Source of the DNA: Ustilaginoidea virens
Taxonomy: Eukaryota; Ascomycota; Sordariomycetes; Hypocreales; Clavicipitaceae
Direction of reading: 5' to 3'
Assembly: GCF_000687475.1 (NCBI RefSeq)
Contig: NC_057319.1
Coordinates: 1,302,001 to 1,366,000, forward strand
Length of the DNA stretch: 64,000 bases
Within the stretch, counting starts at the first letter, position 1. Each line of letters begins with the position of its first letter. Below the pieces are notes generated by a model. The model saw only the letters and a program-made list of their open reading frames with translations, was not told the origin of the DNA and searched no databases. Made by a program: the position numbers and the translations under genes. Positions 51,401 through 56,477 of this stretch are shown one piece after another.

Positions 51401-53178
51401 GCTGGCGTTCCGATAGTGGAGTTTGCCCATCGATTAATGAATGCTCTGGCGCAAGTCAGCCCACCCAATGGAGCCACCTCGCTCAATCAGGCGGCAATCT
51501 TGAACCACCTCGGCAAGCACGCCTTCAATAAGATGGGCAAACTGCGCCTGACTCAGTATCTTGCTGACCTAGAGGAGAAGTACGGCTTAGTGGTATACGT
51601 CGCAGGTAAGGACACGCCATCCCTCCCCACTGTACCGTCCGATTTTGATGATGAGAACACTTTTCGAACCAAAGGCAATGCCGCTGATGGTTTTCTTAAA
51701 CTCTAATTTTTTCCTGATGACATGAAATTGTTTACCACGCTGGACACTTTCTGCACCCTTGTTTTATCTGCTTAGTCTCGCTGACATGACGCAACCCTCT
51801 CCCCTGCTTAGATACCAATGTCAATTCCCCCTGGACCCAGACTTGCATCACCCAGGCCGACAGCATTCTGCTGGTTGGTCTTGCTGATGGATCGCCGGCC
51901 ACTGGAGAGTATGAACGTTTCATGCTCGGGATGAAGTCGACAGCTAGGAAGATGCTCGTTTTGCTTCACAACGAGCGCTTTTCTCGCTCAGGCTTAACCA
52001 GGTCCTGGCTTCGGAATCGTATGTGGATCAATGGCGGCCACTTCCACATCCAGATGCCTATCAGCACGGATGCCATCCCCGTTCATAGCCCGCGTTCCAA
52101 GAGACTTGGCCAAGCTCTCAAGGAAAGAGTTCAGGTCCTCCAGGCCGAGATACAAAAATACACGTCGAGAAAAGTCCACCACGTCCCGTACTACTCGCCC
52201 GAGACTCCATACAAGGGTGATTTCCATCGTCTCGCTCGTCGCCTATGCGGCAAGTCGATTGGCCTCGTGCTCGGGGGCGGAGGAGCCAGGGGCATGAGCC
52301 AGATTGGCGTGATTCGCGCCATGGAAGAGGCCGGTATTCCCATCGACATTGTTGGCGGCACATCCATCGGTTCTTTTGTGGGAGCCTTGTACGCGCGACA
52401 CGCAGACATTGTTCCCATGTTTGGCTTTGCCAAGAAGTTTTGCGGCCGCATGTCGAGTTTGTGGCGATTTGCACTCGACCTGACGTATCCCTCGGCCTCG
52501 TACACCACAGGACACGAGTTCAACAGGGGCATTTTCAAGACGTTTGGCAAAACGCAGATTGAGGATTTCTGGCTGGAATTCTACTGCAACACGACCAACA
52601 TCAGCAAGAGCCGTGTCGAGTTCCACACGAGTGGGTACGCGTGGCGGTACATCCGAGCCTCCATGTCCCTTGCCGGACTGCTGCCCCCGCTGTGCGACGA
52701 AGGCTGCATGCTCCTGGACGGCGGTTACGTGGACAACCTGACCGTGTCGCACATGAAGGGGCTGGGCGTCGACACCATCTTCGCCGTGGATGTCGGCGCC
52801 CTCGACGACGACACGCCGCAGACGTACGGCGACTCGCTGTCGGGAATGTGGGCCTTCTTCAACCGGTGGAACCCGTTCTCGTCTCACCCCAACCCCCCGA
52901 CGTTGGCCGAGATTCAGGGCCGACTGGCCTACGTTTCCAGCGTCGACGCGCTGGAGCGGGCCAAGACGATGGCGGGCTGCATCTACATGCGGCCCCCGAT
53001 TGACGACTACGGCACGTTGGACTTTCACAAGTTTGACGAGGTCTACCAGCGCGGTTACAGGTTCGCCCAGGAGTTTCTGAGCAAGATGAAGGAGGAAGGC
53101 GGCTTTCCCTGGATGGAGGAGACGGGGGCAAAGGAAGCCATGCGGCGGACCAAGGCGCCCCGGAGAGCCAGCATTTGA
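48417..53178 (+). CDS. NTE1: Lysophospholipase NTE1 (neuropathy-target-esterase homologue)
   Basis: NTE1 hydrolyses phosphatidylcholine and lysophosphatidylcholine at the ER, giving glycerophosphocholine. Three exons (48417-48691, 48754-51605, 51812-53178) give 1497 residues, the usual fungal length. Two or three membrane helices fill residues 40-112. [20 protein letters not shown] follows, the family hallmark after the last helix. Cyclic-nucleotide-binding-like domains occupy about 140-460, 650-790 and 800-930. The patatin domain has the GGGGARG loop, the nucleophile Ser1227 in GGTSIGSF and Asp1345 in the DGGYVDN dyad motif, so the enzyme looks intact. The first acceptor is read at 48753; the CAG at 48745 gives the wrong frame. 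Intron 2 (206 bp) is followed by [20 protein letters not shown], which is well conserved. Confidence 0.95.
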
Positions 53179-53557
53179 GGGACGGGGGGATTGATGATTG
53201 TGATGATGACGACGACAACGACGACGACAACAGCAATGATGGCAACTGTAATACATGGTGCCACCTGCCCCTCCTCCAACTTGGCACCCTCCCAGTGCTG
53301 GATTGGATGGTGAAGCGACTTGTTGATTTGGTAAGTCCACGGGCGCATGCGTCTGAGACGGGCGCCTGGCGCCTGGCACCTGGCACCACTGGGCCATTGC
53401 GGGCCATTGCGGGCTCGAGAGGTGCAATCCGCGGGTCGGAATCAGAGCCTGGACCGGACTGATTGAGTCCATCGAGCACAAGTACTAGCTGGCCCTGTGT
53501 TGTACTGCACGACTGGATAGATTTTAGACGGGCCTCAAATCGCCCCGAAATACATTA

Positions 53558-53826
53558 TGTTGAGTTGGCTCAGGTACCCAGTTATACGTAGGGTGCGCGC
53601 GGGATGCTAAGGCATCGATGTGATCCAGTGACTGTATCACGTATCAAAGGTATGATTCTTCCTTGATAATGACTATTGTGACTATCTAGAAAAGGAGGAA
53701 AAGGGCAGATAGGGCTGCATCTGACGATGTGGCCGTTTTATGTGTGCGTGCCGCGGCCACGTATGCCATGTAGTCAGGTGCGCTGATTGACTGGCTGACT
53801 GACCGAGTGACCGACGATTCCGACAC
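53558..53826 (+). repeat. Repeat copy R1 (uninterrupted)
   Basis: A ~260-bp copy running from TTGAGTTGGCTCAGG through GCGCGCGGGATGCTAAGGC and TTCCTTGATAATGACTATTG to TGGCTGACTGACCGA. It matches R4 (55231-55418 plus 55846-55908) in the same direction and R2 and R3 in the opposite one. It has no coding potential and is probably part of a non-autonomous transposable element. Confidence 0.8.
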
Positions 53827-54055
53827 TGGCAGTCTTTATCTTTTGCTATTTAAAAAGCACCGGAATCGTCGCAAAAGAGAGAAATACACACCAGTAAGGA
53901 AATAGCGCAAGTAATGGCAAAAGCAATAGTAAAGGCAATATAGCAAAGGCATCCTGCAGCAGTAAAATCAATCCACTAGATGCACCAGGAAAAGAGGGCT
54001 ATTGTGCCCCCGCGAGATATTAGAAGGTCGAGCTTCTAGTCGGCATAACCAGGCA

Positions 54056-54585
54056 GCGGCAGCTAGCAAGGGCCTGCCGCAATAGCTACTGCAAAGGTTA
54101 ATTATCAGGAGGACTGCGGCAGCGGCAGCCGGTAGGGGCCTGCCGCAGCAGTCAATTGATAGAGCCGATATATCGTGTCGGCAAGGACGGGCGGACTGGG
54201 CTGGCGGCAGCCGGAAGGAGCCTGCCGCGATAGTTGATAGAGATGGTGGCAGCTATATAATAGCCTCTGGCAGTCTGCATCTCTATTAACAGGGCCGAGG
54301 GAAGGGTCCAGCAATTGACAGAGGCAGCGGCAGCCAGTAAGGGGCCTGCCGCAACAGTGGATATTGACAGGGCTGATATAGTAGGTCGGGTCGGGTCGGC
54401 CGGGCTGGATAGGATAGCGGCAGCGGAAGGAGCCTGCCGCTATATTCAACGTTGACTAGAAGGGCGATAGAATTGATCAGGTTTTATCGGCTGAATTGAA
54501 TAATTTAGCGGCAGCGGTAGAAGCCTGCCGCTATATTTGAATTGGCGAATTCAATAGGGTAGCGGCAGCGATTAGAGCCTGCCGC
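54056..54585. repeat. Array of seven GCGGCAG/CTGCCGC hairpin units
   Basis: Seven inverted repeats with arms GCGGCAG and CTGCCGC and a 10-12-nt loop lie at 54056-54080, 54122-54146, 54204-54228, 54327-54352, 54417-54440, 54508-54531 and 54562-54585. Loops are similar (often with GGAAGGAGC or GGTAGGGGC). In the last three the stem can grow to include flanking A/T pairs. Flanks are partly shared: units 2 and 4 continue with related ATTGATAGAGC and ATTGACAGGGC words. A worn copy may lie at 54246-54275. The surrounding DNA is AT-rich and noncoding. Confidence 0.85.
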
Positions 54586-54959
54586 TATATTCGAATTTGA
54601 TAGGATAGCCGGGGAATTCAGCGGCTGCTATCCGGCCCTAGTAAAAGGGGACAGCGGTTGTGTTGATTCATTTAAACCTAGAAGGTCTGCAGCGGCAACC
54701 TATTTAGGTATAAAAAATCGTTCGTAATAGACGAGAGGAACGATTAGCATTCGCAGTTTATTCCTCTGGTCAATGAATTTATTCGACCGTCGACTAAATA
54801 GATCGCTTCGTCTTCCTTATTAGCACGATTTCCATGAAATCGCCTCTTCCAGGTTGTATCTTGCTGATCTGTAGTGAACCTTCTAAGCAGGATGACAGTA
54901 CTCTATATCCTGTGAGTGGTGCTGTTACCATTACTGATCGGTGTCGGTATATACTGTCA

Positions 54960-55049
54960 TCATCAAGGAAGAACCATACCTTTAATACGTGATACAGTGA
55001 TCATATCGATGCCTTAGCATCCCGCGCGCGCCCTACGGACTGGGACCCG
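54960..55049 (-). repeat. Repeat copy R2 (inverted, partial)
   Basis: Contains ATCAAGGAAGAACCATACC, TACGTGATACAGTGATCA and GCATCCCGCGCGCGCCCTA, the reverse complement of the middle of R1 and R4. Confidence 0.8.
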
Positions 55050-55090
55050 AGTATATACCGACACTGATCAGTGTTGAGTTGGCTCAGGAC

Positions 55091-55201
55091 CCTAGTCACA
55101 ATAGTCATTATCAAGGAAGAACCATACCTCTGATACGTGATACAGTGATCACATCGATATATTAGCATCCCGCGCGCGCCCTACGTACAACCGGGACCTA
55201 G
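55091..55201 (-). repeat. Repeat copy R3 (left arm of a ~110-bp palindrome)
   Basis: The reverse complement of R3 matches 55228-55335 (start of R4) with few mismatches. R3 and R4 thus form an inverted repeat with arms of about 110 bp around a ~25-bp centre, including the GCGCGCGC cores. Confidence 0.82.
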
Positions 55202-55230
55202 GCCTGATCAGTATCGGTATATACTCGGGT

Positions 55231-55908
55231 CCTAGTTGTACGAAGGGCGCGCGCGGGATGCTAAGGCATTGATGTGATTACTGTATCACGTATCAGAGGT
55301 ATGGTTCTTCCTTGATAATGACTATTGTGACTATCTGGGAAAGGAGGAAAAGGGCAGATAGGGCTGCATCTGACGACATGGCCTTTTTATGTGTGCGTGC
55401 CGCGGCCCTGTATGCCATCCCTTTGGCTGTGTTAAGGTGCAGCTTCTGTATCGGACCCACTCTTTGCCAAGTACCTACTAGGTATCCTCTTGGCAACTGG
55501 CCTAGTCACCAAACCTTTATCACTAGAATCCTTATACTAGGAATTCCGTCATTTTTAATAGAGCCAACAAGTGACATCCTAAAACGTAGTAATAACGCCT
55601 TTTCTATCTGCCCTCATCACAGCTAAATTGACAGCCTAATATAGTGCGAATAGCCTCACAGCGCTATGTGCCGGGCCCTATAGGTGCGACAAGTGCGAGG
55701 TAGCTCTTTGCAAGTCTGGAAATTGCCGGTACTTACACCATCATACTATTACCTAGTCTGCTAATGTACCCTTTAATGTACGGTTTTCTATTGGCTTAAA
55801 CCCTGGTCCGTTACAAAAGCTGCACCTTAACACAGGCAAAGGGATATAGTCAGGTACAGGTACGCTGATTGACTGGCTGACTGACCGACTGACCGACATT
55901 CCGATACA
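55231..55908 (+). repeat. Repeat copy R4, split by a 0.43-kb insertion
   Basis: R4 matches R1 up to TGTATGCCAT at 55418, is interrupted by the inverted-repeat element, and resumes at 55846 with ATAGTCAGG and the CTGATTGACTGGCTGACTG segment to about 55908. Confidence 0.82.
55417..55845. mobile_element. Non-autonomous DNA transposon (MITE-like) with 41-bp terminal inverted repeats
   Basis: The left end begins ATCCCTTTGGCTGTGTTAAG and the right end, read in reverse complement, begins ATCCCTTTGCCTGTGTTAAG. The two ends match over 41 bp (55417-55457 and 55805-55845) with three mismatches. At about 425-429 bp it codes for no transposase. Comparison with the uninterrupted copy R1 (TATGCCATGTAGTCAGG) shows the empty site and fits a 2-bp AT duplication, taking the element proper as 55419-55843. 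The superfamily is not clear from the ends alone. Confidence 0.85.
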
Positions 55909-56477
55909 TACATAACATACTAAGCCATTGATGTCCATGGCCCCACCAGTGTCCACCGTGTCCACCGTGCCCACCTTGCACAGTCCAGTCCACTGTTCAC
56001 AGTCAAGTCCACACTGTACGCAGAGTGCTGGAGCACGAACCGACAATGCATGCAGGGTATTGTTAAACATGAAATGACATGAAATGACATGAAATGACAC
56101 GAAATGACACGAAATGACACGAAATGACATGGAAAACATGGGAAACATGGCACCAGAAACGTGACGCCACACCAGGTGCGGCTTAATAAGCCTCTTGCAG
56201 CTTCCTTTCCACGCAGGGAAACAGGAAACAACGTCACGTTATGGAAGCATCTTGGCCGCCGGAGCAGGTTCAACTTGGAAATACGTTACATAGTATACCA
56301 TGGCCGCACAGGCCGTGGCTTGATCTTGCTACACCGTTGCACCGCTGTCGCGAACTAACCCCGGTTTCATCGGGAGTCGGGAACCGGGAATCCGCAATCG
56401 GGGGTGCAACCAACAGAGTCGCCGGCACGTTTGGCCGGCACGTTTGGCCGGCACCTCTGGCCGGCACGAGCCGCCGT
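55909..56477. other. Intergenic segment with 10-bp tandem repeat
   Basis: Between the repeat island and the DJ-1 gene. GTCCACC-type words are repeated near 55947-55975. A GAAATGACAT/C decamer follows at 56071-56130. I see no gene. Confidence 0.6.
56071..56130. repeat. Six exact-length copies of a 10-bp repeat
   Basis: GAAATGACAY is repeated six times with no length change; only the last base alternates between T and C. Confidence 0.92.

Follow-up and report, generated by a model that had tools for sequence, protein, structure and literature searches.

What a tight cluster of near-identical, GC-rich hairpins represents in noncoding DNA beside NTE1 of Ustilaginoidea virens is the question raised by this locus, which we followed through the window (the whole 64,000-nucleotide stretch of DNA that was analysed) and through the genome of one assembly (37,158,136 bases in 8 contigs). 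A pattern scan of the window recovers seven perfect hairpins of the form GCGGCAG-(10–12 nt)-CTGCCGC at 54056–54585, whereas 100 dinucleotide shuffles of the window yield no match to the pattern, confirming the exact copies described by an earlier sequence-only reading. An eighth scan match, at 54116–54146, is an overlapping register of hairpin 2. The array lies downstream of NTE1 (the patatin-domain ORF ends at 53178) in a nuclear-type assembly, in agreement with the earlier description of the DNA as nuclear-type. Its components are as follows.

54056..54585, minus strand: array of seven hairpins GCGGCAG-N10-12-CTGCCGC (pattern scan, column comparison)
54056..54080, no strand: hairpin 1 (pattern scan)
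54122..54146, no strand: hairpin 2 (pattern scan; an outer stem GACTGC/GCAGTC is also predicted)
54204..54228, no strand: hairpin 3 (pattern scan)
54234..54289, no strand: a different, longer imperfect hairpin in linker 3, also found in the C5 copy
54327..54352, no strand: hairpin 4 (pattern scan)
54417..54440, no strand: hairpin 5, with A/T-extended stem (sequence, pattern scan)
54508..54531, no strand: hairpin 6, with A/T-extended stem (sequence, pattern scan)
54562..54585, no strand: hairpin 7, with A/T-extended stem (sequence, pattern scan)

Loops measure 11, 11, 11, 12, 10, 10 and 10 nt in hairpins 1 to 7, start-to-start distances are 66, 82, 123, 90, 91 and 54, and the linkers range from 30 to 98 bp, an inequality at odds with the near-equal spacers expected of a CRISPR array, which the sequence-only reading had rightly dismissed. 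The clustering is pronounced: perfect 7-bp GC-rich hairpins number 27 across the 64-kb window, a mean of 0.25 per 600-bp bin, and 7 of them fall in the single bin starting at 54001. In every unit the left arm is followed by a C and the right arm preceded by GC, and the predicted structures of six units (all except hairpin 3, where the inner loop is larger) gain a bulge of one base with one or two further pairs on at least one strand. The stems of hairpins 5–7 are prolonged by two or three flanking A/T pairs, as had been noted, and these units carry TA on both sides. A looser scan of 54001–54620 (up to 5 mismatches, loops of 8–14) adds a single site, at 54246, with 4 mismatches and within the linker-3 hairpin. 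The AT-rich setting first ascribed to the array does not hold for it as a whole: its GC content is 55%, like that of the window, with linkers 1–4 at 44–56% and only linkers 5 and 6 AT-rich (30–33% GC).

The array very probably sits inside a larger unit that the earlier account had missed, namely a non-autonomous, minus-strand Copia-type LTR retrotransposon at about 53558–55906, hereafter C4. In this layout a 268-bp LTR is followed by the hairpin array, a leader, inverted LTR pieces and a second LTR into which a 429-bp MITE has inserted.

53558..53825, minus strand: 3' LTR, 268 bp, reading TGTCGG...CAACA in the sense direction (direct repeat of the 5' LTR; match to an LTR of the relative L064)
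53826..54055, minus strand: internal sequence beside the 3' LTR, on the polypurine-tract side, beginning CTGGCAGTCT
54586..54955, minus strand: leader-side region, 89–91% identical to the C7 copy and with 41 bp at 83% identity to the L064 leader
54956..55198, plus strand: stretch with two inverted LTR fragments, between leader and 5' LTR (window self-comparison)
55224..55906, minus strand: 5' LTR, interrupted by the MITE and with its inner 11 bases missing (LTR comparison)
55417..55845, no strand: 429-bp MITE with 41-bp terminal inverted repeats, in the 5' LTR (self-comparison, genome search)

Within this element the array begins 230 bp inward of the 3' LTR. The two LTRs are identical at 178 of 194 gap-free positions, with 16 substitutions and 6 gap columns; the 3' copy has TG..CA termini, the outer end of the 5' copy reads TA, and the flanks CATTA and CATAC form an imperfect target duplication, at best an eroded one. 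The inverted LTR fragments occupy 54956–55040 and 55093–55198. Discounting the MITE, which has at least 16 other near-full-length copies in the genome at 90–93% identity (40 of 81 candidates scored; 97 matched pieces), the element measures about 1.9 kb, with an internal region of about 1.4 kb. No gag-pol ORF was found in C4, and the longest ORF in 53826–55223 has 114 aa (ORFs of at least 40 aa with ATG, GTG or TTG starts), which makes it improbable that the array derives from coding sequence. The flanking inverted repeats had first raised the possibility of a TIR DNA transposon or MITE, rejected in view of the direct LTR repeats, the TG/CA ends, the target duplication of the C5 copy and the Copia-type ORF of a relative. 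Outside the element, in the neighbourhood of an ORF that carries a DJ-1/PfpI domain, short tandem repeats occur at 56067–56136 (10-bp ACATGAAATG-like units) and 56421–56468 (13-bp GCCGGCACGTTTG-like units).

The Copia-type assignment comes from L064, a locus on contig 6 in which LTR-like repeats flank a 1153-aa ORF. The window LTR matches one of its LTRs at 72% over 150 columns (E 5e-14), the leaders share only 41 bp (83%, E 4.6e-5), and CTGGCAGTCT also adjoins the 3' LTR of L064 by eye. Pfam matches to the ORF, both below the curated cut-offs, are gag_pre-integrs at residues 405–459 (E 4e-4) and, downstream of it, RVT_2 at 905–1026 (E 1.2e-5), with no integrase-core match among those listed. 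Of 7523 candidate proteins, 698 match residues 380–1153 at E<=0.001, and the closest of the 120 listed is a Metarhizium guizhouense Ribonuclease H-like protein with RVT_2 (62% identity over 97%); many of the listed matches, this best one included, carry precomputed PF07727. Since the L064 ORF is shorter than most relatives among the matches listed, this copy is itself probably truncated. The sequence following its LTR is CTGATCAGTGTT, without a TGG start. The junction between the L064 LTR and the primer site is itself palindromic (AACACTGATCAGTGTT), a configuration in which snap-back during reverse transcription could occur. The L064 leader also carries tandem repeats of about 59 bp, in seven copies (2382–2775), and three copies are present in C5 (L013 6699–6847).

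When the array is used as a DNA query against the genome, only C4 and two further copies of the element, C5 and C7, are returned (4 candidates, all scored). C5 occupies L013 5392–7625, has TG...CA ends and is bounded on both sides by ATTTT, an exact 5-bp target duplication. It resembles the window copy in LTR, leader and array, and has a 41-bp piece in common with it in 53826–54055. C5 also aligns with L064 at 76% over 662 columns spanning leader repeats and gag, and on these alignments it is a stronger link to L064 than the window copy. Its gag-like ORF, P0001 (L013 5990–6670, minus strand), gave 321 candidates in the genome, 150 of which are scored matches, and 146 of these carry internal stops; a protein search limited to 0.55–1.75 of the query length, which excludes long polyproteins, gave no homologue at E<=0.001 among 523 candidates from 5.8 billion proteins. 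In C7 no target duplication was seen, and the array is cut by an AT-rich insertion of about 6.5 kb (L011 5500–9000 and L012 1–2950), which by eye has direct repeats at its termini. Over a measured 3.5 kb of it, GC content is 27%, the TA/AT ratio 1.46 and the (CA+TG)/(AC+GT) ratio 0.3, ratios of the kind expected from repeat-induced point mutation. All three hairpin-bearing copies contain inverted duplications of LTR and/or leader (window 54933–55236; L013 6908–7393; the element ends in L011 and L012), and that of C5 forms a spacer-less palindrome, its arms 243 nt long and its centre near ACTGATCAGT.

C4 and C5 agree in the order of hairpins 1–4, at 88% identity and with start spacings of 66, 82 and 123 in C4 and 66, 77 and 123 in C5, which implies that the units had diverged before the copies separated and that the array travelled as one piece. 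Judged by these sequences, the array is cargo moved by the LTR element. This bears directly on the proposal that the hairpin is itself the mobile or amplifying unit, comparable to the GC clusters and double-hairpin elements of fungi, which are dispersed and mobile in mitochondrial DNA. The likeness stands as far as form goes, both being short GC-rich palindromes in variable flanks, and the TA on either side of units 5–7 could be read in the same sense; it fails on dispersal, as the array was found at three loci that all belong to one element family, and by eye none of C4, C5 and C7 has a hairpin that is singly present or absent with joined flanks. Nor are exact-arm hairpins in excess elsewhere on the genome-wide test that the earlier reading had suggested: with loops of 6–20 nt, the pattern has 27 forward matches in the genome, comprising 8 in C4 (an overlapping match besides the seven hairpins), 2 in C5, 1 in C7 and 16 outside these elements, the last to be compared with 27 for the reversed control, and the loops of the 16 look unrelated by eye. 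A 20-base pattern representing the 11-nt-loop form and omitting the outer bases of each arm matches exactly at 12 sites, of which 8 belong to the three elements and 4 do not; when one mismatch is allowed it does exceed its control (64 versus 34), and 8 of the 64, all exact, are within the three elements. Independent mobility of the hairpin units appears very improbable, the looser pattern being less clear on this point. The virus collection contained no exact match to the hairpin pattern with 11-nt loops.

The wider family allows a further origin to be weighed, in which the element captured a bystander host sequence that now has no role. Hairpins at up to one mismatch occur in 7 of 50 family loci, all seven derived from the C4, C5 and C7 elements, the 50 loci (3.1–3.7 kb each, taken from the best LTR/leader and gag-like matches) being part of the family and arrays farther out being missed. 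The other 43 without such a hairpin, together with L064 and L065, where none is found even at two mismatches, would fit an acquisition of this kind; on the other hand, the array query matched nowhere else in the genome, leaving no visible donor, and we consider capture quite unlikely.

Between the seven units of C4, arms and linkers behave very differently. Not one of the 14 arm columns varies (294 of 294 pairwise comparisons agree, in units ascertained through exact arms), whereas agreement falls to 150/294 in the adjacent 7+7 flanking columns, 124/294 in the next 7+7 and 153/546, near background, in columns 15–27, with 1 of 54 flank columns invariant; among units 5–7 alone the nearest 7+7 flank columns agree in 33 of 42 comparisons, and the contrast there is weaker. 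The divergence of linkers around conserved arms that the sequence-only reading had pointed out is therefore borne out, and a simple minisatellite of about 88 bp with arms no more conserved than linkers, which it had named as the alternative, is not what the comparison between units reveals. Tandem Repeats Finder reported no such ~88-bp array, copies under about 70% alike being usually missed by it. Measured over the alignment length, end-to-end linker alignments exceed the shuffled mean in 11 of 15 pairs, by at least 0.07 in three (1-2, 2-4 and 4-5), and some units reach 60–80% local similarity. An old, decayed tandem array may lie behind the units.

Neutral repeat turnover is the main rival to a kept signal, and we give it somewhat less than even odds. 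Here tandem duplication, slippage during replication or template switching by reverse transcriptase, at GC-rich hairpins within the retrotransposon, would have generated the units, and breakpoints within the arms would have homogenised them, or made them seem conserved, without any function. Such turnover fits the local similarity of some units, the variation in unit number among copies, the fused CCTGCCGC-GCCTGCCGC junction of the C7 array, which a deletion running from one hairpin into another would produce, and the presence of another tandem array, the 59-bp leader units, in the same family. It sits less easily with the silence of Tandem Repeats Finder and with linkers near shuffled similarity, which would make the duplication old, yet with 98 arm positions unchanged; slippage alone would not keep arms while losing linkers.

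Comparisons between copies weigh on the neutral side. The claim that pairing itself has been kept finds no backing in covariation, as none of the seven stem pairs has a two-sided change over 15 hairpins, 14 of them distinct. Arms differ at 4 of 56 positions between C4 and C5 and linkers at 27 of 231 (Fisher p 0.47), and because the two decay alike no constraint is visible between these copies, whose differences are as expected for copies that would now be decaying. Within C4, by contrast with LTRs that stand 8% apart, the arms have 0 changes in 98 sites, giving P of about 0.02 if half of that divergence is taken as the rate, a value that assumes identical LTRs at insertion (doubtful given the rearranged 5' end) and that comes from units ascertained by exact arms. 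The predicted fold of the array is more stable than 100 of 100 shuffles on both strands, with z of -3.63 for the sense and -5.39 for the antisense strand, and the antisense value, being the stronger, lends no special weight to a function of the sense RNA.

Perfect dyads could also act as DNA, each offering a pair of inverted, spaced sites to a dimeric protein that binds DNA in transcription or silencing. The arms contain CGG...CCG triplets, and half-sites of this type are recognised by fungal zinc-cluster proteins. Variation of the loop between 10 and 12 nt would shift the distance between half-sites, however, and the array is not part of the 3' LTR but starts 230 bp inward of it, and we regard this role as unlikely.

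Taken together, we favour, with a probability of roughly 0.6, the view that the array is a structured repeat region, noncoding and internal to a non-autonomous Copia-type LTR retrotransposon, and that it was kept while the element was active, perhaps as an RNA signal. It probably once lay between the coding region and the 3' LTR, as a 3' UTR of a fuller element, a placement argued from position: the C5 array directly follows the gag-like ORF on its 3' side, whereas those of C4 and C7 are joined to the leader and look like larger deletion forms. In the scenario we propose, one region downstream of the coding sequence would have given rise to all three arrays, the copies having lost differing lengths by deletion; while the lineage was mobile, selection on the RNA would have kept the hairpins nearly identical as the linkers between them drifted and entire units came and went, and the present copies would be decaying. 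That the hairpins were a selected RNA signal is a tentative functional reading, to which we give less than even odds. As a signal in many copies, they would most likely have recruited Gag or an export or packaging factor from fuller relatives. The more specific version, a multi-copy cis-acting element for packaging, dimerisation or export by which a Copia-type element lacking proteins of its own used the Gag of fuller relatives and had its hairpin identity selected, is possible but doubtful. Should a signal of this type be real, it would offer a concrete and testable candidate for the means by which proteins of other elements recognise non-autonomous LTR elements in fungi; should it not be, the locus would illustrate how the internal region of a decayed retrotransposon can mimic a separate hairpin family when the enclosing element is missed.

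Within the titles and abstract openings listed by searches of open-licence literature, on hairpins and palindromic repeats in retrotransposons, non-autonomous U. virens elements and packaging signals of non-autonomous LTR elements, there is no description of an identical-arm hairpin array in a fungal Copia-type derivative. Mitochondrial GC clusters and double-hairpin elements are alike in their GC-rich palindromes, but the present ones belong to one element family of the nuclear genome at three loci. TRIM elements stay below about 1 kb and have very short internal regions, LARD internal regions are larger than about 1.4 kb, and TR-GAG elements keep only a gag-like ORF. Like all three classes C4 combines two LTRs and a leader with no detected gag-pol ORF, and like TR-GAG elements C5 keeps only a gag-like ORF; C4 nevertheless exceeds the TRIM size class, and the window element is distinguished from these classes by its hairpin array, the three copies found, its inverted LTR pieces and an internal region intermediate in size between TRIM and LARD. 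Small non-autonomous LTR elements do occur in fungi, and fungal TRIMs with 5-bp target duplications have been reported (PMC10886601). Retrozymes (PMC4918200) are small non-autonomous LTR elements that combine a conserved RNA structure with otherwise variable sequence. Theirs is a hammerhead ribozyme within the LTRs, whereas an Rfam search over 53400–56100 gave 7 matches at E<=5 and none at the gathering score. Plant Tat/Ogre LTR retrotransposons carry variable tandem repeats in 3' UTRs, downstream of the coding sequence (PMC7004042). The array described here differs from these in being built of hairpins, with arms that are invariant and linkers that align only weakly, and in its host, a fungal Copia-type element.
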